From NCBI GenBank assembly GCA_023488865.1, contig JAMDDG010000342.1, positions 1-33,121 of the forward strand: 33,121 bases of DNA. Reading direction: 5' to 3'. Each line of letters begins with the position of its first letter. Positions within the stretch are counted from its first letter, which is position 1. The position numbers and the translations under genes are program-made. This stretch comes from Bacteroidota bacterium. GTDB lineage: Bacteria > Bacteroidota > Bacteroidia > Bacteroidales > Prolixibacteraceae. This document shows positions 2,950 to 14,115 of the stretch, in pieces. The notes under the pieces are model-generated. The model was not told where the DNA came from. It saw only the letters and a program-made list of their open reading frames with translations, and made no database searches.

Positions 2950-4284
2950 ATGTCCAAAAAAACAGATAAAATAATAGATGAATTAATCGACCAATACTTG
3001 GAAGATGACCGTAATAATCGTCCTTGGATAATTGGATTTAGTGGAGGGAAAGATTCCACAGTTTTACTTACATTAGTTTGGTTAGCTCTTCAAAAGATAA
3101 GAGATAATGACTTAAATTTCAAATATAAACGCCCAGTATATGTCGTATGTAATGATACAATGGTCGAAAATCCTGTAATTCAAGAGTATGTACAAACTGT
3201 TTTAAACACTATTCAAAAAGCAGCTAAAGAGCAAAACTTACCTATTATGGTAAAAACAACAACCCCAAAATTAGAAGATACATTTTGGAGTTGTGTAATT
3301 GGGAAGGGTTATCCCGTTCCAAATAATTCTTTTCGTTTCTGTACAGAGAAGATGAAAATTAAACCGACCTCACAATTTATCGTAGATCAGGTAGCAGCTG
3401 ATGGTGAAGCCATTGTTTTAATTGGAACACGACTAGCCGAAAGTCAACAGCGAGCAAAGTCTATAAAAAAACACGATATAAAAGGGCACAGGCTTTCTAA
3501 GCACCCGTTAAATCCAAATACATACACCTACGCCCCAATCAAGGAGTTGATGCTGGAGGAGGTTTGGTATATCATAAATGCAATACCTTCTCCTTGGGGG
3601 TTTGATAATCAAATTCTGTTCAAAATTTATCTGAATGCAAGTGCCGATGATTATGAATGTCCTACAGTTGTAACCGATGACTCTCATAAATCATGCGGTC
3701 AGAGCCGTTTTGGATGCTGGGTGTGTACTGTGGTTAAAGAAGACAAATCTATGACCGCATTAATTAAAAACGGAACAGAATGGATGCGCCCACTTCTTGA
3801 TTTTCGGAATAGTTTAGTTGTAAACAGGAATGTTTCTGAATATAGATATTCAACCCGAAGAAATGGTCAGATTGCTGTTGACGAGACAGGCCATAATATG
3901 GGTAACTATACTATTGAATACAGAATGCAGTTATTGAAGGAATTACTTACAATTCAGAAAGAAACTCAGAACTATAGATCAAGTATTGACCTTATTACCA
4001 GTCAAGAATTGATTGCAATTCAAGTGATATGGTATCGTGATGGACATTTCAAAACAACGGTGAATGATATTTACAATGAGGTATATGGATACGATATTCC
4101 TAACGATAAAATAGGTTTACAAGAAAGACTACTTCTTGAAAAAGCATGCAATAAATCAAGTCATTACTCACTAATTCAAGAATTGCTTGCTTTACAAAAA
4201 AATAAAATTTTATTGATGAAAAAATATGGGCTTCAGAACGATCTTGAAGCAAGATTAGACACATTTATAAAGGAGACGGTATGA
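2950..4284 (+). CDS. dndC: DNA phosphorothioation protein DndC (PAPS-reductase-like, Fe-S)
   Basis: PP-loop IIGFSGGKDSTVLLTLVW (about 3040-3060), SFRFCTEKMKIKP, TRLAESQQRA, and the cysteine cluster KSCGQSRFGCWVCTVVKEDKSM; followed by dndD. Confidence 0.93.
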   Translation: MSKKTDKIIDELIDQYLEDDRNNRPWIIGFSGGKDSTVLLTLVWLALQKIRDNDLNFKYKRPVYVVCNDTMVENPVIQEYVQTVLNTIQKAAKEQNLPIMVKTTTPKLEDTFWSCVIGKGYPVPNNSFRFCTEKMKIKPTSQFIVDQVAADGEAIVLIGTRLAESQQRAKSIKKHDIKGHRLSKHPLNPNTYTYAPIKELMLEEVWYIINAIPSPWGFDNQILFKIYLNASADDYECPTVVTDDSHKSCGQSRFGCWVCTVVKEDKSMTALIKNGTEWMRPLLDFRNSLVVNRNVSEYRYSTRRNGQIAVDETGHNMGNYTIEYRMQLLKELLTIQKETQNYRSSIDLITSQELIAIQVIWYRDGHFKTTVNDIYNEVYGYDIPNDKIGLQERLLLEKACNKSSHYSLIQELLALQKNKILLMKKYGLQNDLEARLDTFIKETV

Positions 4285-6404
4285 TTATTAAGAGTATAGA
4301 ATTAAACAACTACCGACTTTATAAAGGAGTAAATAAAATATCATTTTCAAATGAAAATGATAAGAATCTATTTTTGATTTCTGGCGAAAATGGCTTTGGA
4401 AAATCAACTTTTTTACATTCACTACTCTGGTGCATGTATGGTCGACTAATGGTGGATATTGATGAGTCTTACCGTAAAGAAATTCAGAATGCTGGCGGTG
4501 GTTATAATCAAATGCAAATAAATAATCTAAATGAATTTTACAAGCAAAAACTTAACATCGAAGTTACCCATAGTTTATTGACGAGTATTAAGAAGCAAGG
4601 ATATTCCATTGATACTGAATATTTAAAACAGTGGTCTCAATATGCTGTTTCATTAGAATTTTCAGAGATTTTCATTCCGTCTATTCCTTGTCGCTCATTA
4701 AAGATTACTCGTTCCTATGATGTAATACGTGATGAAGAAAGTGTTGAAATTCTTATTGACGGAATAAAAAATGAACTTACCTCCGAAATCGGACATGAAG
4801 TTTTTATTAATGATTTTGTCTTAAATAAAGATATTGCTCGATTTTTCTTTTTTGATTCCGAAAAAATTGTAACGCTTGCTGAAACAAATACAATAGATGA
4901 GAAACGAAAACTTTGCTCAGCTTACAACGAAGTTCTTGGAGTGAAGAAATACGAAGATTTAAAGAGAAATCTGGAAAATTTACGTTTGCGTTTCCGCCGG
5001 AAGTCCGATGATATCGAAAGTCGTAACAAGCTGACTTCCTTGCTTTACAAGCAAAAGTCTTTGCATGAAATCATAGCAGAAAAAGAAAAGAAAACAGCAG
5101 AATTTGATGACAAACTTTTATCCCTTCGCAAGGACAATGAAAAATTTCAAATGCAACTTATGCGTGAAGGGAACGGAATGACTATCGAAGAACTGAAACG
5201 ACAGGAAGATGTTGTTACAACAACAAAAAAACGAGACGAAGAATATAAACAAAGGCTCAAAATCTTTCTCGAATATGTTCCTTTTGCTATTTCAGGTAGA
5301 TTATTACAGCAAGCAAAAAATCAATTGGAACACGATTTTAATGTTCTAAAATCTCAAAATGATATTCAAAACCAGAATCTGTTGCTTCAAAATATATCGA
5401 CAGATTTATTGTCTGCAATTGAACAACTATCAATTACTGAAAACAGTAAGAAAAAGTTGGACAATTCAATTCAAAGAATTGTTTCCAAATATCAAAATCA
5501 ATCAAGTAGTGGAGATTCTTTATTGAATGTTAGCAAAGAGACCTTCGAGGAGTTTCTATCAGTGTATAACAATATAAGGACCACTTACAAAATTGAATTT
5601 GAGCACCTGACGGACGACTATCGTAAAAATAAGCAGATTCTTAACAATGCTGTCCGTAAAATCTCAAATATGCAGAGCAATGAGAATGATTCTATCATTA
5701 AAAATATCCGTAAAAGTAAAAATGAAATAGAGAAAACAATTACAGACATAGAAACTCAGATTCGTCAGCAACATGAAATACGCGGCGGTATGAATAAAGA
5801 ATTAGCTGTTGTAAGCCGTCAAATTTCAGAGTTAAGCAAAAAGGTTAGTCTTGATGACAGCGATACATTGAAAGATAAAGTTGCGGAACAGCTTATTGCA
5901 GAGCTAAATACATTTCTTGTTTCGTTGAAAAACGAAAAAAAATTCTCATTGGAAAGACGTATTAAAGGCACAATGAATAAGCTAATGCACAAATCTAATT
6001 TTATCAGCAAAGTTGAGGTTTTAATTTTTGATGATATAATTGACATAAATCTTTATGCAAACGATGGAAATATTATCAAAAAGGAATCTCTTTCCAAGGG
6101 TGAACAGCAACTTTATGCAACCTCGCTTCTTAAGGCTCTTGTAGAAGAATCGGGCATACAGTTTCCGGTATTTATTGATAGTCCGTTGCAAAAATTTGAT
6201 AAGAGCCATGCAACCAAAATTATTACGGAATTTTACCCTACTGTCTCAAAGCAGGTTATTTTATTTCCATTACTGCATAAAGAATTGACAAAAAATGAAT
6301 TAGAAATAATGAAGCCATTTGTAAATTCTGCATTTATTTTGAAAAATGGAAATACATATTCATTTATTCAAGAGATTGATATTAACAATTTAATGAAGGA
6401 ATAG
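4281..6404 (+). CDS. dndD: DNA sulfur modification protein DndD (SMC-like ATPase)
   Basis: MIIKSIELNNYRLYKGVNKISFS...LISGENGFGKSTFLHSLLWCMYGR (Walker A), DIARFFFFDSEKI, coiled coil, LSKGEQQLYATSLLKAL signature, FPVFIDSPLQKFDKSH Walker B; overlaps the dndC stop by 4 nt. Confidence 0.93.
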   Translation: MIIKSIELNNYRLYKGVNKISFSNENDKNLFLISGENGFGKSTFLHSLLWCMYGRLMVDIDESYRKEIQNAGGGYNQMQINNLNEFYKQKLNIEVTHSLLTSIKKQGYSIDTEYLKQWSQYAVSLEFSEIFIPSIPCRSLKITRSYDVIRDEESVEILIDGIKNELTSEIGHEVFINDFVLNKDIARFFFFDSEKIVTLAETNTIDEKRKLCSAYNEVLGVKKYEDLKRNLENLRLRFRRKSDDIESRNKLTSLLYKQKSLHEIIAEKEKKTAEFDDKLLSLRKDNEKFQMQLMREGNGMTIEELKRQEDVVTTTKKRDEEYKQRLKIFLEYVPFAISGRLLQQAKNQLEHDFNVLKSQNDIQNQNLLLQNISTDLLSAIEQLSITENSKKKLDNSIQRIVSKYQNQSSSGDSLLNVSKETFEEFLSVYNNIRTTYKIEFEHLTDDYRKNKQILNNAVRKISNMQSNENDSIIKNIRKSKNEIEKTITDIETQIRQQHEIRGGMNKELAVVSRQISELSKKVSLDDSDTLKDKVAEQLIAELNTFLVSLKNEKKFSLERRIKGTMNKLMHKSNFISKVEVLIFDDIIDINLYANDGNIIKKESLSKGEQQLYATSLLKALVEESGIQFPVFIDSPLQKFDKSHATKIITEFYPTVSKQVILFPLLHKELTKNELEIMKPFVNSAFILKNGNTYSFIQEIDINNLMKE

Positions 6405-6406
6405 GC

Positions 6407-6805
6407 ATGGTATTTACGCAGATAAGAACAAGTAGTAGAAACAGGGAAATAGTTATTGAATTGACACGCAAATTCAATTTGGGTGCAGAGAATGTAATTG
6501 CTCGAATTGCCATTGGTTATTCGTTACAATCAGGGATAAAGTTTGAATCTACCGATGTCAAAGATTCTGGAGGTAAAGAATATAGTAAAAGTGTGCTTTT
6601 CGGGAATTACTACCCAATATATTTAGCAATGATTTGTACGTACTATCAGATAAATGAGAACAACAAAGATTTACCTCGTTACTTCAAAATGCACCTTGAC
6701 CACGGATTACAACTTATTTATGACGATATTATGGACAATCCGAATTTAGTAGGTTACGATTATTTATTTGATAAAATACATAGCGGATTAAGTGAGATAT
6801 GTTAA
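6407..6805 (+). CDS. dndE: DNA sulfur modification protein DndE
   Basis: 132 aa, MVFTQIRTSSRNREIVIELTRKFNLGAENVIARIAIGYSLQSG...HLDHGLQLIYDDI; size, motif and position directly after dndD match DndE. Confidence 0.88.
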   Translation: MVFTQIRTSSRNREIVIELTRKFNLGAENVIARIAIGYSLQSGIKFESTDVKDSGGKEYSKSVLFGNYYPIYLAMICTYYQINENNKDLPRYFKMHLDHGLQLIYDDIMDNPNLVGYDYLFDKIHSGLSEIC

Positions 6806-9015
6806 GAGAGAATTTGAAATATATTACGATAGAGCAATTACTGACTACAAATCAAATTTCTGTGCGTACAGCTAATTGCTGTCATAATGCAGAGTTTGAT
6901 TCGCTCTATGATATTATTTCATACTACGAACAAGGTAGTTCGTTTTCGACAATAAGAAATGCAGGCAAATTGACATGTGAAGAATTAAAGAATTTGTGTG
7001 AGAATTATTTGTCAAATCTATCTGATTTTGATTTGCAGAATGTTGAGGGCAAAGATTTAATGCCAGAAAGAAAAACTAAAGGTGAACTATTATATGAATC
7101 TTTAAGTACGAATCAGAGTCTTTTAATTGAACAGAAGTATTCAGAGTTAATTTCTCATTGCTCCGTTAGGACTTGTAATGGACTACGAAAATTCACAGCT
7201 AATGAATTTATCGAATCCTATTTAATCAGCGATAGCAACGAACTGATTAAGATAAAAAATATTGGTAAAAAATCGATAAATGAAATTCTCGAATTTAGAT
7301 TGAAGCTTAAGGCATTCATCGATGAAATAAAATACGTTAAAGATTCATCTTTGCAATGTATTAGATTGAATACAATAAACAAATATGGAGACTTTTGCGA
7401 CAACGATTTCGTTTCTAATTTTTACGAAAAATATTGCCATCTGCCAATGTTTTGGATTTTAGAGCAATATATTAAAAATGATAATTCTACAAGAATAGAA
7501 ATCTTAATAGATTCATTTCATGTTTTTCAACATCGGAAAATGCTTTCATTGGAAGAAATGGCACAAAAGCACAATTTTTCACGAGAGCGTGTAAGACAAA
7601 TTCGTAATGGTTTATTCCATAATATATTAAGGATTCCCATAGTGTTAATTGATAATAAAAAAAATTGCAATAGAAATTATGGAATGCTTCAAAGTAAAGA
7701 CGATTGGGCATATCTTTTGGATACTTTCAAAGAGATTGATATTTTTTGTCAAGAATCGTATGAAATACAAAATTGCTTGAAAGAAGAAGAATGCAATTTC
7801 TCAGTTGAGTTTGTTTTACAAATCGTTGCATACATTTTTCGGGATAAGTACTCTCTTTTTGGTGGCATTGATGTATCTCAAAGGTTTAGGATTTGGGATA
7901 CGACCTTTCTTGTAAAAAATGAATATTCCGACATTTTCGATTTTGAAAAAATGAGAGATGAATTTAGCAATGTCTTAATGGATAATGAGACCGATTATTT
8001 GTTAGACATTGAAGATTATATTGCAAATTCTCAATGTTGGGTAAAATATGATTATAATAAGACTTACAGTCTCGTAAGTATAGTAAGAGATATTTTACTT
8101 TACGAATTTCATTTATATTCAGATGGTATCGATGGTCGCATAAAAATACCGGCAAACAAAGAAAGGAAACCTATAGATGTGATATATGAAATATTACATC
8201 AAACCGGAAGGCCTATGCACTTAGATGAAATTTTTGAGGAATTCAAAATTATTTTACCGGAACATAAATATACAGAAGCAGCGCAATTAAGACCTTATCT
8301 ACAAAGACATGAAGCTATATCATACAGAAATAGAAAAAGTGTTTACACACTCAAGGAATGGGAGCATATCAAAACAGGTACTATTCGTGATGCTATCGTA
8401 GAATTCTTATCAGAAAATGATTTACCTCAAACTGCTGATGATATTACGGAATATGTATTACAATATTTTCCCGAGACAAATATTGCAAGCGTTAGAACCA
8501 GTATGTTTAATGATACCCAAAAACGTTTTTCCTTTTTCAAAGACAATATATTTGGATTAAAAGACAAAGAATATCCCTCTGAATACGAGTTAGGAGAACA
8601 ACAAGAAGTTTTAAGAAGATCGTTTGAACAACGGTTGCTTGATCTGGAGATATTCATTGTTGAAAAAGGGCATTTCCCTTTCGTTTCCAGCGGCAAAAGT
8701 AAAGAAGGATCACTTGGGCGATGGTGGTATCGAATTATCAACAATAAACAACAGATAAGTGAGTCACAACAAACAGAAGTGAATAGAGTTAAAGTTCAAT
8801 ATGCAGAATACGATACTGATAAGACAATTTATGATTGGAGTCTCAATTACAATAAGTTAAAGTGTTTTTTGCTTGAAAATAGGCGCATACCTTTTGCTCG
8901 TGGAGATGAGAAGTTTCTTTATCGATGGCTCAGTCGTGTAAATGAGGATTTTCAGAATTACAGGTTAACCGAAGAACAGCGACAAAAGTATATTGATCTC
9001 GCAAAATTGATTTGA
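6799..9015 (+). CDS. Multi-domain nucleic-acid-binding protein: two alpha-CTD-like segments, sigma-70 region-4-like HTH, winged-helix-like segments, helicase-associated-like repeats; putative PT-system effector component
   Basis: SVRTANC...IRNAGKLTCEELKNL and SVRTCNGLRKFTANEFIESY...LIKIKNIGKKSINEILEF (RpoA C-terminal/HhH-like); LSLEEMAQKHNFSRERVRQIRNGL (sigma r4 HTH); DVIYEILHQTGRPMHLDEIFEEF (winged-helix-like); two C-terminal W/LG.W repeats ending LTEEQRQKYIDLAKL. Confidence 0.75.
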   Translation: MLRENLKYITIEQLLTTNQISVRTANCCHNAEFDSLYDIISYYEQGSSFSTIRNAGKLTCEELKNLCENYLSNLSDFDLQNVEGKDLMPERKTKGELLYESLSTNQSLLIEQKYSELISHCSVRTCNGLRKFTANEFIESYLISDSNELIKIKNIGKKSINEILEFRLKLKAFIDEIKYVKDSSLQCIRLNTINKYGDFCDNDFVSNFYEKYCHLPMFWILEQYIKNDNSTRIEILIDSFHVFQHRKMLSLEEMAQKHNFSRERVRQIRNGLFHNILRIPIVLIDNKKNCNRNYGMLQSKDDWAYLLDTFKEIDIFCQESYEIQNCLKEEECNFSVEFVLQIVAYIFRDKYSLFGGIDVSQRFRIWDTTFLVKNEYSDIFDFEKMRDEFSNVLMDNETDYLLDIEDYIANSQCWVKYDYNKTYSLVSIVRDILLYEFHLYSDGIDGRIKIPANKERKPIDVIYEILHQTGRPMHLDEIFEEFKIILPEHKYTEAAQLRPYLQRHEAISYRNRKSVYTLKEWEHIKTGTIRDAIVEFLSENDLPQTADDITEYVLQYFPETNIASVRTSMFNDTQKRFSFFKDNIFGLKDKEYPSEYELGEQQEVLRRSFEQRLLDLEIFIVEKGHFPFVSSGKSKEGSLGRWWYRIINNKQQISESQQTEVNRVKVQYAEYDTDKTIYDWSLNYNKLKCFLLENRRIPFARGDEKFLYRWLSRVNEDFQNYRLTEEQRQKYIDLAKLI

Positions 9016-9016
9016 T

Positions 9017-11251
9017 ATGTTGAAAGATAAAGACTTTAAATATAGATATTCTACTGGGAGAAAGGATCTGCCTTTCGACTTTTTCGAACTGGCGTTGTCG
9101 AATAGTATAAATTTTGACATGGGGTTAGGTTATTTCAGTAGTGCCTCGTTCAATATCCTCTCTGTTGGCATTGCTCATTTTATTAGTAATGGTGGTAACA
9201 TGCGTTTGTACATAAATCAATATCTTACGGAAGAGGATTATAAACTTTTGCAAAACAAGGAAATAGTTGATTTTGAGGATTATATATTACAATCTTTTTT
9301 TGCCCTTAAGAAAGCATTATCCCAGAGAGATGAACATTTTTTTAAATGCCTTTCATACCTTGTTCAAACTAATAGAATTGAAATAAAGATCGTAATTCCT
9401 AAAGATGGTGGATTAGCCCATGAGAAATTCGGCATTTTTACCGATAAAAATAATGATAAAGTTGCTTTTACAGGCTCCCTGAACTTAACGGCTGCTGCCT
9501 TGGTCAAGAATATTGAAACAATCGAATGTACATGCTCTTGGAAAAGTGAAGATAGCAGAGAAAGAATTAAATTAAGCGAACAAGATTTTTCGGAAATTTG
9601 GGACGGAAAAAACAACAATGTGTTGGTCTTCCCCGCAAAGAAATTCTGCCAAGAAATAGTGAAAACTTATCCTACTGTTGATTCTAACGAATTATTAATA
9701 CAAGAGAAAGAAATAATCAAAAAATTATCTAATAAAACAACTATTGTAAGTGAATCATTACCAAGCTATCAGACAATAAAAGAGCCTCATTTCCCCGATC
9801 AATATCCTGATGGTGCAAGACAATATCAAATTCAGGCGTATGAAGCGTGGCTAAAAAATGGCAAACGAGGTATATTTGCAATGGCTACCGGGACAGGTAA
9901 AACCATAACTTCATTGAATTGCGCTTTACTAGAATATAAAAACGATGGTGTTTACCAACTATTGATATTAGTGCCAACTATTGCATTAGTTGAGCAATGG
10001 ATTGACGAAATTGCGTTGTTCGATTTCAAAAATGTAATAACAGTATCTTCTGAAAATCCCCGATGGCGACAACAGATTGTAAAATTAGAAGATAAAGTTA
10101 CAAGAGGTAAGAGAGTTAGCTTTGTAATAGTATCTACTTACCAATCTTTCACAAATAAAGACTTTCAACAAATCTTACCTTATTTGCCTGAAGAAATGAT
10201 TATTATTGCCGATGAAGCACACAACATCGGATCCGAATCAGTTAGGGCAATTTTCAGATTATTACATTTAAGAAGGAGAATTGCATTATCTGCTACTCCA
10301 AGCCGAATTTACGACGAAGATGGAACAGCCGAGTTAGAAAGCTTCTTTAATGACAAACCTCCTTATGTATACAGTTTTTCTATGAGCCAGGCTATAGAAG
10401 AAGGTCGTCTAATGGAATATTGCTATTATCCCAAAATGGTTAAGCTGAACGATGATGAAATGCAAGAATATGCTGCAATCACAGAACAACTTATGCGGTT
10501 ATTTGATAATTCTTCAGGAGAATTTAGTGATAGCCAAAAGGCAAAGAAACTATTGATGTTACGTAAACGCATTTTACACAAAGCTGACGATAAAATGCGT
10601 GTATTTAAAGAAATAATCAAAGAAATCGGTAGTGAAAAGTTGAAATATTGTTTTGTATATGTTCCAGAGGGGAATAAAGTATTTGATTCTGATGAGGCTC
10701 TGTTATACTCTAAAACAGATATTGATTCAGATCAAGAAATATACGAAGAAAGCATAATGAAAAAAATGCTTGATTTAACAAAAGAGATTTCTCCTAACAC
10801 CACCTGTAATACATACACGGGAAAGAACAACAAAACTGAAAGAAAAGCTATTTTACAAGGTTTTGAAAGTGGACAAATAAATGTATTGTTCGCGATGAAA
10901 TGTTTAGATGAAGGGGTTGACGTGCCAAGAGCTGAGTATGGCATTTTTGCTTCAAGCACAGGAAATCCTCGACAGTTTATTCAAAGACGTGGTCGTTTAC
11001 TACGTAAACATAAGGAAAAAACATTCGCCCATATCTACGATATGGTCGTTGTACCTAATTATCAATCTCCATACTATTCTAAGGAATTTTGGCAAATGGA
11101 ACGCAGTCTGGTGAAAGGAGAATTAACTCGCGTTGCATATTTTGCCAATTTAGCAACCAATAATTATACGGGTGCTCTTCGATCTCTTGACGAAGTCGCA
11201 CGGTTTTACGAATTGGTATTATCTGAACTGATTTTGAGTATAAACCAATAA
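9017..11251 (+). CDS. PLD-like nuclease domain fused to SF2 DEAD/DEAH-box helicase
   Basis: N-terminal single HKD-like motif AHEKFGIFTDKNNDKVAFTGSLNLTAAAL (HxK 9419-9427, GSxN from 9473); then ATGTGKT Walker A, IIADEAHNIG motif II, ALSATPSR motif III, FIQRRGRLLRKH motif VI. Confidence 0.9.
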   Translation: MLKDKDFKYRYSTGRKDLPFDFFELALSNSINFDMGLGYFSSASFNILSVGIAHFISNGGNMRLYINQYLTEEDYKLLQNKEIVDFEDYILQSFFALKKALSQRDEHFFKCLSYLVQTNRIEIKIVIPKDGGLAHEKFGIFTDKNNDKVAFTGSLNLTAAALVKNIETIECTCSWKSEDSRERIKLSEQDFSEIWDGKNNNVLVFPAKKFCQEIVKTYPTVDSNELLIQEKEIIKKLSNKTTIVSESLPSYQTIKEPHFPDQYPDGARQYQIQAYEAWLKNGKRGIFAMATGTGKTITSLNCALLEYKNDGVYQLLILVPTIALVEQWIDEIALFDFKNVITVSSENPRWRQQIVKLEDKVTRGKRVSFVIVSTYQSFTNKDFQQILPYLPEEMIIIADEAHNIGSESVRAIFRLLHLRRRIALSATPSRIYDEDGTAELESFFNDKPPYVYSFSMSQAIEEGRLMEYCYYPKMVKLNDDEMQEYAAITEQLMRLFDNSSGEFSDSQKAKKLLMLRKRILHKADDKMRVFKEIIKEIGSEKLKYCFVYVPEGNKVFDSDEALLYSKTDIDSDQEIYEESIMKKMLDLTKEISPNTTCNTYTGKNNKTERKAILQGFESGQINVLFAMKCLDEGVDVPRAEYGIFASSTGNPRQFIQRRGRLLRKHKEKTFAHIYDMVVVPNYQSPYYSKEFWQMERSLVKGELTRVAYFANLATNNYTGALRSLDEVARFYELVLSELILSINQ

Positions 11252-11260
11252 AAAAATAAT

Positions 11261-11476
11261 ATGACAGCGGAAGAAATTTTCAAAGAGGTATTGAAATCGG
11301 CTGAATTTCAAACGATTTTTCAAATTTCCAAAGAAGATTTGGAACGGGAAGATTTTTCTACAGAATCTGAATATCATGTTATAGAAATTGTCAAAGCAAT
11401 TCTAAGTGGACAGGAAAACCACAAGAGTAAAGAGCAGATCTTTCAAACCATTCAGAAACAAATAATGCAGTTATAA
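11261..11476 (+). CDS. Small hypothetical protein (71 aa), operonic
   Basis: Intact ORF with 9-nt and 3-nt gaps to its neighbours; acidic/helical composition; no family recognised. Confidence 0.65.
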   Translation: MTAEEIFKEVLKSAEFQTIFQISKEDLEREDFSTESEYHVIEIVKAILSGQENHKSKEQIFQTIQKQIMQL

Positions 11477-11479
11477 GAT

Positions 11480-13615
11480 ATGGCTACAATAATTAAGTCC
11501 GTTAGTTTTCAGAACTTTTATAACTACTACGGAAGTTTTGACGAAAACACTTATCGTTTCAAAGAGGGTATTAATATTGTTAATGCCGACAATAATATGG
11601 GTAAATCCAAGTTCTACAACGGTATTCTTTGGATTTTGAAAGATACAGTATATGATTCGGATTTGAAAAAAATGGTCACTGCCGCCTCGTCATTTCTAAA
11701 AATGGCTTCGGGCAAGGCAATAAACGAGGAAAGCAATTTTGATATGGGAGTAAATATCACCTTCGTTGAGAATGAAAACATGTATTCCGTTTCAAAAATT
11801 GTACAGTTTAAGAAAGACGGTAACAGTTGGAAAACTAATGAAAAATTGGATATATTACAAACTATTGACAACCGCGATATTCCTGTTTTAGATACTGCAG
11901 ACAAGGACAAAATCACTAAAAAAATTATTCCGGCCGAGTTAATGAATTACGCATTACTACAAGGTGAATCAATGGAAGAGATGGTAGATTTGTCCTCCCA
12001 TAACGGTTTATCTTCTACGATTGAAGCTTTGGCAGGCATTAAAAATCTAATTGAAATTTGTGACATGTCAAAATTTCTCTCTAAAAATGCAAACGACTTG
12101 TTAAAGAAAAAGAATACCGAATTTACAACCAACAATGATAAAGTTGATGGGTATATCAAAGAACAAGAAATGCTTGAAGATCGTATTGAAAACACAACAA
12201 ATCAGATTGAAACTTATCGAACAGAGCTGTCCGAAGCAAAAAAAACTAAAGAACGATTAGAGGCATTACAACTTTATGCTGCTAAAAGAGGAGAATATAG
12301 AGAAAAACTGAGCAATTTGAATTCGGAAATTAATAGGTTAGAAGAAAAAAAGAATGAGAAAGAAAAAAGTATTACAGCAATGCTATTTTCCGAAAATTCG
12401 CCTTGGATATTGATGGGTTTGCAAGAGCAAATTTCATTGTTCGACGAACATAGAATAAACTTATCAAGCGAAATAGCTACTCAAAAGGCGATAAGCAATC
12501 CGTATACCAAATTACCCATAAACTCGCCTGATGCAATTTCTTTAAAAAGAATGATAGATACACATTTTTGTGAAGTTTGTGGTCGAGGAGCACCAGAAGA
12601 TTCGGATGCTTGGAAGCATATGAAAAAGATATATGACCGACCTGTTGAAAATACAAATAGAAATAATTTTTCCACATTTTACAGCGGTATTCAAACCACG
12701 GTCGGCTCATTTTCGTTGAGTATCCCTAAAATCACGGATAACTTACAGAAATATAGAGATAAAATTGATGAGTTGGAAGAATCTATTACAAAAAAGAAAG
12801 AAGAAAAAGATGTAGCCACACAAGAGTTCTTCAATATTGGCGGGAATGAAGGAGATTCTGATGTTAAGGACCGTCGGAACAAATTTGATTACGACCTTGC
12901 TACAAAAACTATTGATAAAAAAGATGAGGATATAAGAAAAGCAGAAAAATCAATAAAAGATTGGAAGGTTCGATTGAAGCAGATAGAAGAAGAAATAGAG
13001 GGTATAAACACAAACAGAGAAATTGAAAGTTATCGTAAATTTAAAGAAATTATGGTGAGTGTTGAGTATACTCTCCTTAATTCCAAAGAACGAATTTTTG
13101 ATGAAATTCTAAAATCATTGGAAATAAACGCCAACAAAAAATACGGGGAACTCACACAAGGCAATTTATCGGCAGGTGGTAAATTAAATTTCTCAAAGCA
13201 GGCTGATGGTACTGTTCAAGTTTGTATAAAAAATATCAATGACGGTGAATTGACCGGTCTTGGCACTGGATTTCAGCGGATGAAGCAGTTATCTATCATT
13301 ATGGCTATCATTTCTTCCAAGATTGGGAATAATCAATTTGATTATCCTTTTATTTCCGATGCACCATTTTCTGAGTTTGGTGACAATTTTATCAATAATT
13401 TCTTCAAAATAGCTCCGAATGTATTTACTCAAAGTATCATTTTTATAAAAGAATTATACGACTCTAAATCTGAGGATTTTCTAAATGATCTAGGTAAGAA
13501 GATTTTGAGAAAAATGGAAAATGGTGAAATACCAGGTACATTCTATGTAAATGTGATTGAAGAAAAGGCCGACACAACGAATTTAGTTACAAAAAATAAA
13601 TGTTATAAAGAATAA
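11480..13615 (+). CDS. SMC/Rad50-like ATPase with CxxC hook (DndD-like architecture)
   Basis: MATIIKSVSFQNFYNYYGSF...NIVNADNNMGKSKFYNGILWIL (Walker A-like), coiled coils, central FCEVCGRG (CxxC at 12569-12580), LGTGFQRMKQLSIIMAI signature-like, YPFISDAPFSEFG Walker B-like. Confidence 0.85.
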   Translation: MATIIKSVSFQNFYNYYGSFDENTYRFKEGINIVNADNNMGKSKFYNGILWILKDTVYDSDLKKMVTAASSFLKMASGKAINEESNFDMGVNITFVENENMYSVSKIVQFKKDGNSWKTNEKLDILQTIDNRDIPVLDTADKDKITKKIIPAELMNYALLQGESMEEMVDLSSHNGLSSTIEALAGIKNLIEICDMSKFLSKNANDLLKKKNTEFTTNNDKVDGYIKEQEMLEDRIENTTNQIETYRTELSEAKKTKERLEALQLYAAKRGEYREKLSNLNSEINRLEEKKNEKEKSITAMLFSENSPWILMGLQEQISLFDEHRINLSSEIATQKAISNPYTKLPINSPDAISLKRMIDTHFCEVCGRGAPEDSDAWKHMKKIYDRPVENTNRNNFSTFYSGIQTTVGSFSLSIPKITDNLQKYRDKIDELEESITKKKEEKDVATQEFFNIGGNEGDSDVKDRRNKFDYDLATKTIDKKDEDIRKAEKSIKDWKVRLKQIEEEIEGINTNREIESYRKFKEIMVSVEYTLLNSKERIFDEILKSLEINANKKYGELTQGNLSAGGKLNFSKQADGTVQVCIKNINDGELTGLGTGFQRMKQLSIIMAIISSKIGNNQFDYPFISDAPFSEFGDNFINNFFKIAPNVFTQSIIFIKELYDSKSEDFLNDLGKKILRKMENGEIPGTFYVNVIEEKADTTNLVTKNKCYKE

Positions 13616-13620
13616 GTACT

Positions 13621-14115
13621 ATGGATGGACAGTCAATTAGAGACCGAATTGGTCAAAAAAGAGTAAATTACAATAAAAAATATGATGGTTTAATAAGAGC
13701 TATTTCAAAAGTAGGGGCTTCTTCTCAAAAAGGTGAATTTTCTTCATTTGGTCCCATTTACGAAACTTTTATGTACGCATTTATTATAGGATATAAATTA
13801 GGAGCACCTAAACCATTGGAAAGCGGGGAGAGAGTTGGATTTAATGATTTCGTAGATTTCAAGCCCACTCCAATTAGGGATTTTGTTTTAATGCTGCTAC
13901 TTAATAAATCAGAAAAATTTGGCATTAAGTGGATTGAATTAGAAAATGCAAGTGAAGACGTAATCAATACCTTTGTGACTGAACTTATTAGACAAATGGA
14001 AGGCTATGCAAATACAGGTTTCGAGTATCTACAAAACAAATGGAACAATGAGAATATGAAATTTCGTAATCCTTTTGTTTTTGTGAATTTTATCGAAGAA
14101 TTGAGTATGTCATAG
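13621..14115 (+). CDS. Small protein resembling DndE / dnd system-associated protein 4
   Basis: 164 aa; YETFMYAFIIGYKLGAPKPLESGERVGFNDFVDFKPTPIRDFVLMLL resembles the '.F..aigy..g...pl' core of DndE-like/dnd-associated proteins; 5 nt after the SMC gene. Confidence 0.55.
   Translation: MDGQSIRDRIGQKRVNYNKKYDGLIRAISKVGASSQKGEFSSFGPIYETFMYAFIIGYKLGAPKPLESGERVGFNDFVDFKPTPIRDFVLMLLLNKSEKFGIKWIELENASEDVINTFVTELIRQMEGYANTGFEYLQNKWNNENMKFRNPFVFVNFIEELSMS

Follow-up and report, generated by a model that had tools for sequence, protein, structure and literature searches.

The gene pair at positions 11480 to 14115 of the window (the whole stretch of 33,121 nucleotides that was analyzed) is a newly found member of the published PbeC/PbeD family. 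Within a PbeABCD restriction module, it very probably acts as the core that scans DNA, and the module shares an operon with DndCDE, which writes phosphorothioate (PT) marks. An earlier note on this DNA had proposed that the modification ATPase and its nick-binding partner were duplicated into a sensor or restriction complex. This idea was already published in 2024 and agrees with the proposal of Rakesh, Aravind, and Krishnan for PbeC/PbeD (NAR 2024; PMC10853773). That study re-annotated PbeC as an ABC ATPase that has a zinc hook and is the sister of DndD, PbeD as a second DndE clade, and PbeA as a combination of an HKD nuclease with an SF2 helicase, and it proposed a duplication of the ATPase-DndE pair. 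The present finding gives the pair its correct name and provides an independent test of the duplication idea, with a strong outcome for the ATPase and agreement in outline only for the small protein.

The dnd-pbe operon and its relatives

The two genes are the last of a single co-directional operon spanning positions 2950 to 14115, in the order dndC-dndD-dndE-X738-pbeA-pbeB-pbeC-pbeD, in which neighboring genes overlap or are spaced by at most 9 bases. Both open reading frames (ORFs) reported in the earlier note are present, encoding 711 and 164 aa. Its description of the pair holds for these two genes but omits the 71-aa pbeB directly before the ATPase gene. The operon is made up as follows.

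dndC, 2950 to 4284, plus strand: PP-loop sulfurtransferase of phosphorothioation (TIGR03183, 2.2e-125, above cut-off)
dndD, 4281 to 6404, plus strand: modification ATPase without a hook (PADLOC DndD, 3.9e-76; TIGR03185, 7.8e-62)
dndE, 6407 to 6805, plus strand: DNA-binding protein of the modification complex (PF08870, 2.9e-24, above cut-off)
X738, 6799 to 9015, plus strand: putative, unnamed DNA-binding adaptor of 738 aa (Pfam, AlphaFold2, Foldseek)
pbeA, 9017 to 11251, plus strand: 744 aa, HKD (PLD) nuclease domain fused to an SF2 helicase (PADLOC PbeA, 5.5e-252; TIGR04095, 2.1e-121)
pbeB, 11261 to 11476, plus strand: small protein of 71 aa in the interval between pbeA and pbeC (open frame)
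pbeC, 11480 to 13615, plus strand: 711-aa ABC ATPase of the Rad50/DndD type ("CxC" clade) with a central CxxC zinc hook (best PADLOC PbeC match, 1.9e-25)
pbeD, 13621 to 14115, plus strand: 164-aa partner of PbeC, dnd_assoc_4 (TIGR04062) family, proposed clade-2 DndE with two ribbon-helix-helix units

Positions 9017 to 14115 thus hold the complete A-B-C-D gene set of PbeABCD (744, 71, 711, and 164 aa), which is conserved in relatives, with a PLD/HKD-SF2 helicase PbeA adjoining PbeC-PbeD. The HxK...D...GSxN motif and the helicase motifs are present in 68/68 PbeA proteins, and relatives of pbeB were found in 31 loci. The source genome is a draft of 472 contigs that is 83% complete and contains several class-V aminotransferase genes, none of which was assigned as DndA, the cysteine desulfurase for the writer. 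An AbiEi/AbiEii-type toxin-antitoxin pair lies at 1234 to 2921 and ends 28 bases 5' of dndC. It was rejected as a component of the system because, among the related loci, AbiEii occurs in just one and AbiEi in none.

A scan of GTDB genomes and of genomes of the same order yielded 80 loci, including the window. The relatives were picked by two peptide patterns of this PbeC family and are mostly Bacteroidota, and the fractions reported here are not global. Some loci may represent one genome met twice, as three pairs of PbeC sequences are identical. PbeA occurs in 77 loci, PbeC in 80, and PbeD in 79, the missing genes including those lost to cut contigs, and the order PbeA-(B)-C-D is conserved. 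Since PbeC relatives are found in 80 loci, 79 of them with PbeD, both ORFs are conserved genes and not chance ORFs.

Co-variation was assessed by partial correlations of pairwise distances in the 36 loci that encode all six proteins. PbeC-PbeD is the tightest pair (partial r of 0.68), followed by DndC-DndD (0.52), DndD-DndE (0.40), and PbeA-PbeC (0.37). The values across the two pairs are 0.11 for PbeC-DndD, -0.12 for PbeC-DndE, and -0.14 for PbeD-DndE. Because co-variation is found within the pairs, with no excess across them, PbeC-PbeD and DndD-DndE behave as two separate cognate pairs. The small protein displays both the operonic pairing (79/80 loci) and the coevolution with a CxC ATPase (r of 0.68) expected of a clade-2 DndE. 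A partial r of 0.37 was also obtained for PbeA-DndE in these 36 loci and is unexplained.

PbeC and PbeD compared with DndD and DndE

The resemblance between the two ATPases is evident at the profile level. Comparison of the protein families encoded at 4281 to 6404 and 11480 to 13615 with hhalign gave a probability of 99.3% (E value of 1.1e-20) over 602 columns, against 12.6% for a reversed DndD profile used as a control. The N-lobe alone scored 98.9% (reversed control, 0.1%). SbcC from related genomes matched PbeC less well, at 95.3% over 245 columns and 77.6% for the N-lobe. These scores show full-length homology between the two ATPases and place PbeC nearer to DndD than to SbcC, as expected of a DndD sister and not of an SMC/Rad50 protein. 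The view that the second ATPase mirrors DndD is thus borne out. BLAST of the two window sequences alone returns only a 58-residue match (E value of 7e-4). With an identity of approximately 14% across the profiles, the duplication is ancient and not local.

The ATPase motifs quoted in the earlier note are real. The Walker A sequence NADNNMGKSK occupies PbeC residues 35 to 44, and its Gly is replaced by Asn (DNNMGKS or alike) in 20 of the 77 full-length relatives, including the window lineage. The Walker B region (residues 624 to 634 in the window protein) reads DAPxS in 77/77, with Ala at the position of the usual catalytic Glu in all of them, and the Q-loop YxxxQGE is likewise kept in 77/77. 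These motif counts take in close relatives. Because the Walker B Glu is replaced by Ala and the Walker A sequence is odd, ATP hydrolysis by PbeC may be slow, altered, or lost. The CEVC hook spans residues 364 to 367; both Cys residues are present in 77/77 full-length relatives (CxVC in 72), and a conserved Cys pair at this position is absent from 44 DndD relatives, in agreement with the hook being a difference from DndD. With its zinc hook, PbeC is of the Rad50/DndD type and does not have the hinge of an SMC protein, so the label "SMC ATPase" used earlier was not apt.

Membership in the PbeC family is indicated by the PADLOC match (1.9e-25) together with the hook. The hook is needed for this decision because PADLOC PbeC models also match DndD. 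PADLOC names alone were rejected as proof of PbeC identity, as several PbeC models favor the DndD of the window; PDLC02742, for example, fits DndD (395 bits) far better than PbeC (88 bits). Sequence searches of the PDB with PbeC and PbeD as queries returned nothing useful.

For the small proteins, the resemblance between IGYKLG and IGYSLQSG that had been pointed out does not extend to a sequence relationship. BLASTP of PbeD against DndE gave an E value of 4.5, and the profile comparison of 6407 to 6805 with 13621 to 14115 gave a probability of 9%, which became 3% after seven distant relatives were added. The PbeD profiles comprised 60 to 69 relatives, the seven extra ones originating from Cyanobacteria, Alphaproteobacteria, Bacilli, and Halobacteria. 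The DndE Pfam family PF08870 was found in none of the 60 PbeD relatives. With BLASTP, Pfam, and profile-profile comparison all nonsignificant, proof of PbeD-DndE homology at the sequence level was rejected. The dnd_assoc_4-like label proposed earlier is confirmed by TIGR04062, which matches 45 of 60 close relatives (best, 4.6e-11; the window protein itself only weakly, 0.059) and places PbeD within PbeABCD through these relatives. PbeD is not filed as DndE by sequence, and its published assignment rests on structure.

An AlphaFold2 model of PbeD, built with 60 relatives (pLDDT of 86, pTM of 0.84), predicts a helix at residues 3 to 11, a strand at 14 to 18, and helices at 19 to 28 and 46 to 60, followed in the second part by a strand at 71 to 76, helices at 83 to 95 and 112 to 149, and a C-terminal helix at 153 to 163. 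The result is a strand-helix-helix unit repeated twice, with in-unit loops of 17 and approximately 16 residues and a long last helix. This order of elements matches that of the clade-2 DndE proteins (PMC10853773), with a C-terminal extension shorter than the average reported in that paper. A Foldseek search of the PDB matched E. coli DndE (4lrv) with an E value of 1.0, a probability of 0.41, and a TM-score of 0.54 (target length), which is not significant; DndE chains make up 7 of the top 17 matches, with 0.41 the highest probability among these. The predicted fold is weakly indicative of DndE descent, with which it is compatible in outline, and does not amount to proof. The proposed duplication of the pair is accordingly upheld by profiles for the ATPase half and is weak for the PbeD half, which agrees in fold outline but not in sequence. 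Neither the profiles nor the predicted fold pointed to an unrelated SMC family combined with the lack of a DndE fold, the outcome that the earlier note had set against its own idea.

In ten loci (L002, L003, L030, L032, L038, L039, L040, L042, L045, and L065), PbeD is longer, at approximately 345 to 355 aa. Pfam identifies a Schlafen AlbA_2 domain (PF04326) in the C-terminal part of the long PbeD of L030, and the others that were inspected read alike.

Modification writers and the additional gene X738

Among the 80 loci, 46 carry Dnd genes, 20 carry SspBCD, none carries both, and 14 carry neither, many of these on short contigs. The Ssp-associated loci are L050, L051, L053, L054, L059, L060, L063, L064, L066 to L069, L071 to L073, L075 to L077, L079, and L080, and two further loci with Pbe and sspBCD were found outside the main 80 (L111 and L115). 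In a PbeC tree, which is a quick tree with long branches, Dnd and Ssp loci separate with a single change. A Sphingomonadaceae plasmid carries co-directional, overlapping sspABCD-pbeABCD genes, and Ssp-Pbe is also found on a Rhizobium plasmid. No description of Ssp-Pbe coupling was found in the open-access literature searched, and the replacement of dndCDE by sspBCD in 20 of the 80 PbeC loci, none having both, is possibly new. SspFGH was considered as another name for PbeACD and rejected: SspH is an FtsK-like translocase, and no PLD or SMC protein is mentioned there. In an earlier survey, 165 of 553 PbeA/PbeC genes were reported as solitary, with no PT writer nearby (PMC6459918). Among the 34 loci that lack dndCDE, 20 have sspBCD, which offers a simple explanation, open to testing, for some of the writer-less Pbe systems.

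The gene between dndE and pbeA, X738, combines RpoA-CTD/HhH-like repeats, a sigma-70 region-4-like helix-turn-helix, winged-helix segments, and an HA-like C terminus, as judged by Pfam, AlphaFold2, and Foldseek. It occurs in 15 sampled loci (the window, L008 to L014, L024 to L028, L031, and, by profile with an E value of 2.5e-71, L052), either in the dndE/pbeA interval or, in loci with a cut contig or no dnd genes, directly 5' of pbeA. On a Ruegeria plasmid (L109, positions 4885 to 7965), the gene for a 1026-aa relative overlaps the 5' end of pbeA (6.8e-24). Nine rumen Prevotella-type loci (L015 to L023) have no X738, and their PbeA carries an N-terminal extension of 180 to 200 aa homologous to X738 residues 372 to 616, the central winged-helix part being missing (98.8%; E value of 1e-16).

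X738 also lies directly upstream of genes for DndD and a fusion of DndE to a HerA/FtsK-type ATPase (525 to 527 aa) at L123:7750-13798 and L125:6688-12522, with neither dndC nor pbe genes in view. In the phylum sample, it was found in two other genomes without DndD/DndE-HerA neighbors. No description of X738 was found in the open-access literature searched, including the text of PMC10853773. Its predicted domains suggest an unnamed DNA-binding adaptor, possibly new, and it is a concrete candidate for bringing PbeA to DNA.

Taken more broadly, we consider it an even call whether Pbe is a general PT-checking restriction engine whose partner can be either PT writer, dndCDE for double-stranded or sspBCD for single-stranded marks (never both in the 66 informative loci), with X738 as a fifth component in one lineage that would work directly with PbeA and is also found 5' of DndD and the DndE-HerA fusion.

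Proposed working and relation to known systems

Xiong et al. (Nat Commun 2019; PMC6459918) described PbeABCD in the haloarchaeon Haloterrigena jeotgali A29, where PbeB is 66 aa and PbeD about 152 aa. In this archaeon, PbeB, PbeC, and PbeD are each essential for antiviral activity and PbeA partly so, and PT-marked virus is exempt. Viral DNA replication is halted with no visible cleavage, virus is PT-marked in cells expressing dndCDEA alone, and deletion of dndCDEA is nontoxic (PMC6459918).

For the window, we propose that DndC-DndD-DndE, aided by a cysteine desulfurase from elsewhere in the genome, would place PT marks at some chromosomal sites. ATP binding would bring about dimerization of PbeC at the heads, and zinc would join the CxxC hooks; PbeC would carry PbeD as the DNA-binding subunit, the DNA contact of PbeD and the stoichiometry of the complex being conjectural. 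This second scanner would inspect DNA for sites without PT marks. On unmarked (phage) DNA, PbeC-PbeD may license PbeA, and replication would be blocked. PbeB could be a small subunit for coupling or inhibition, and X738 an added DNA- or mark-binding adaptor for PbeA. Cutting or nicking by PbeA is plausible given the HKD motif intact in 68/68, but a simple nuclease model is hard to square with the archaeal experiment, in which viral DNA was not visibly cleaved.

The step of this proposal that concerns PbeD can be read otherwise: the duplicated ATPase could have acquired a new subunit, PbeD being an unrelated small helical partner in the place of DndE and not a DndE descendant. The missing sequence match at all levels, PF08870 included, and the nonsignificant Foldseek result fit this reading. 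The doubled strand-helix-helix with its in-unit loops, the long helix of unit two, and the C-terminal helix nevertheless correspond to the clade-2 DndE description, DndE chains recur among the top structural matches, the gene order is parallel, and each ATPase co-varies with its own small partner, all of which leaves an unrelated origin rather unlikely. Mixing of PbeC with DndD, or of PbeD with DndE, would instead make the pair an accessory of the modification complex and not a separate sensor. A shared operon and homologous ATPases would suit such a complex, but it is highly improbable in view of the low PbeC-DndD and PbeD-DndE correlations, the archaeal virus that was PT-marked with dndCDEA alone expressed (PMC6459918), the Ssp loci, and further Ssp-Pbe examples on two Alphaproteobacterial plasmids. 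PbeC-PbeD need not partner with DndD/DndE, because 20 loci combine them with SspBCD and have no DndCDE in view.

As a different function, the NAR 2024 study raises abortive (suicide) defense as an alternative: infection would lead PbeA to cut the DNA of the host, and PbeB would serve as an inhibitor released by phage. An HKD motif that is intact although the archaeal test showed no viral DNA cleavage would be explained in this way, and PbeB is small and fast-evolving. The escape of PT-marked archaeal virus points instead to self/non-self marking, and the archaeal dndCDEA deletion was nontoxic; we regard suicide as unlikely, and retain PbeC-PbeD as the probable scanner of a restriction module.

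Rad50/SbcC shares with PbeC the ABC heads, the coiled coil, and the CxxC hook, but gives a weaker profile match (95%, 245 columns), is longer (about 1,030 aa), and has no PbeD partner. DndD-DndE is likewise a pair of an ABC ATPase and a small protein, with profile homology over the full length of the ATPase; it differs in having no zinc hook, in a DndE that matches PF08870 where PbeD does not, and in writing PT marks rather than restricting. The CxC ATPase/clade-2 DndE system (PMC10853773) has the same zinc-hook ATPase, DndE-like partner, HKD-SF2 nuclease, small protein, and tandem with DndD-DndE, although the hook spacing is CxxC in the present protein (CxVC in most of its relatives), in contrast to the CxC of that paper's label. 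In comparison with H. jeotgali PbeABCD, the present locus is of a Bacteroidota type, with no dndA in the cluster, X738 as an extra gene, and a PbeC that the PADLOC PbeC models match only weakly, whereas the A-B-C-D set itself, the PLD-SF2 PbeA, the PbeB of about 70 aa, the PbeC ATPase, the PbeD of about 150 aa, and the link to dndCDE are the same.
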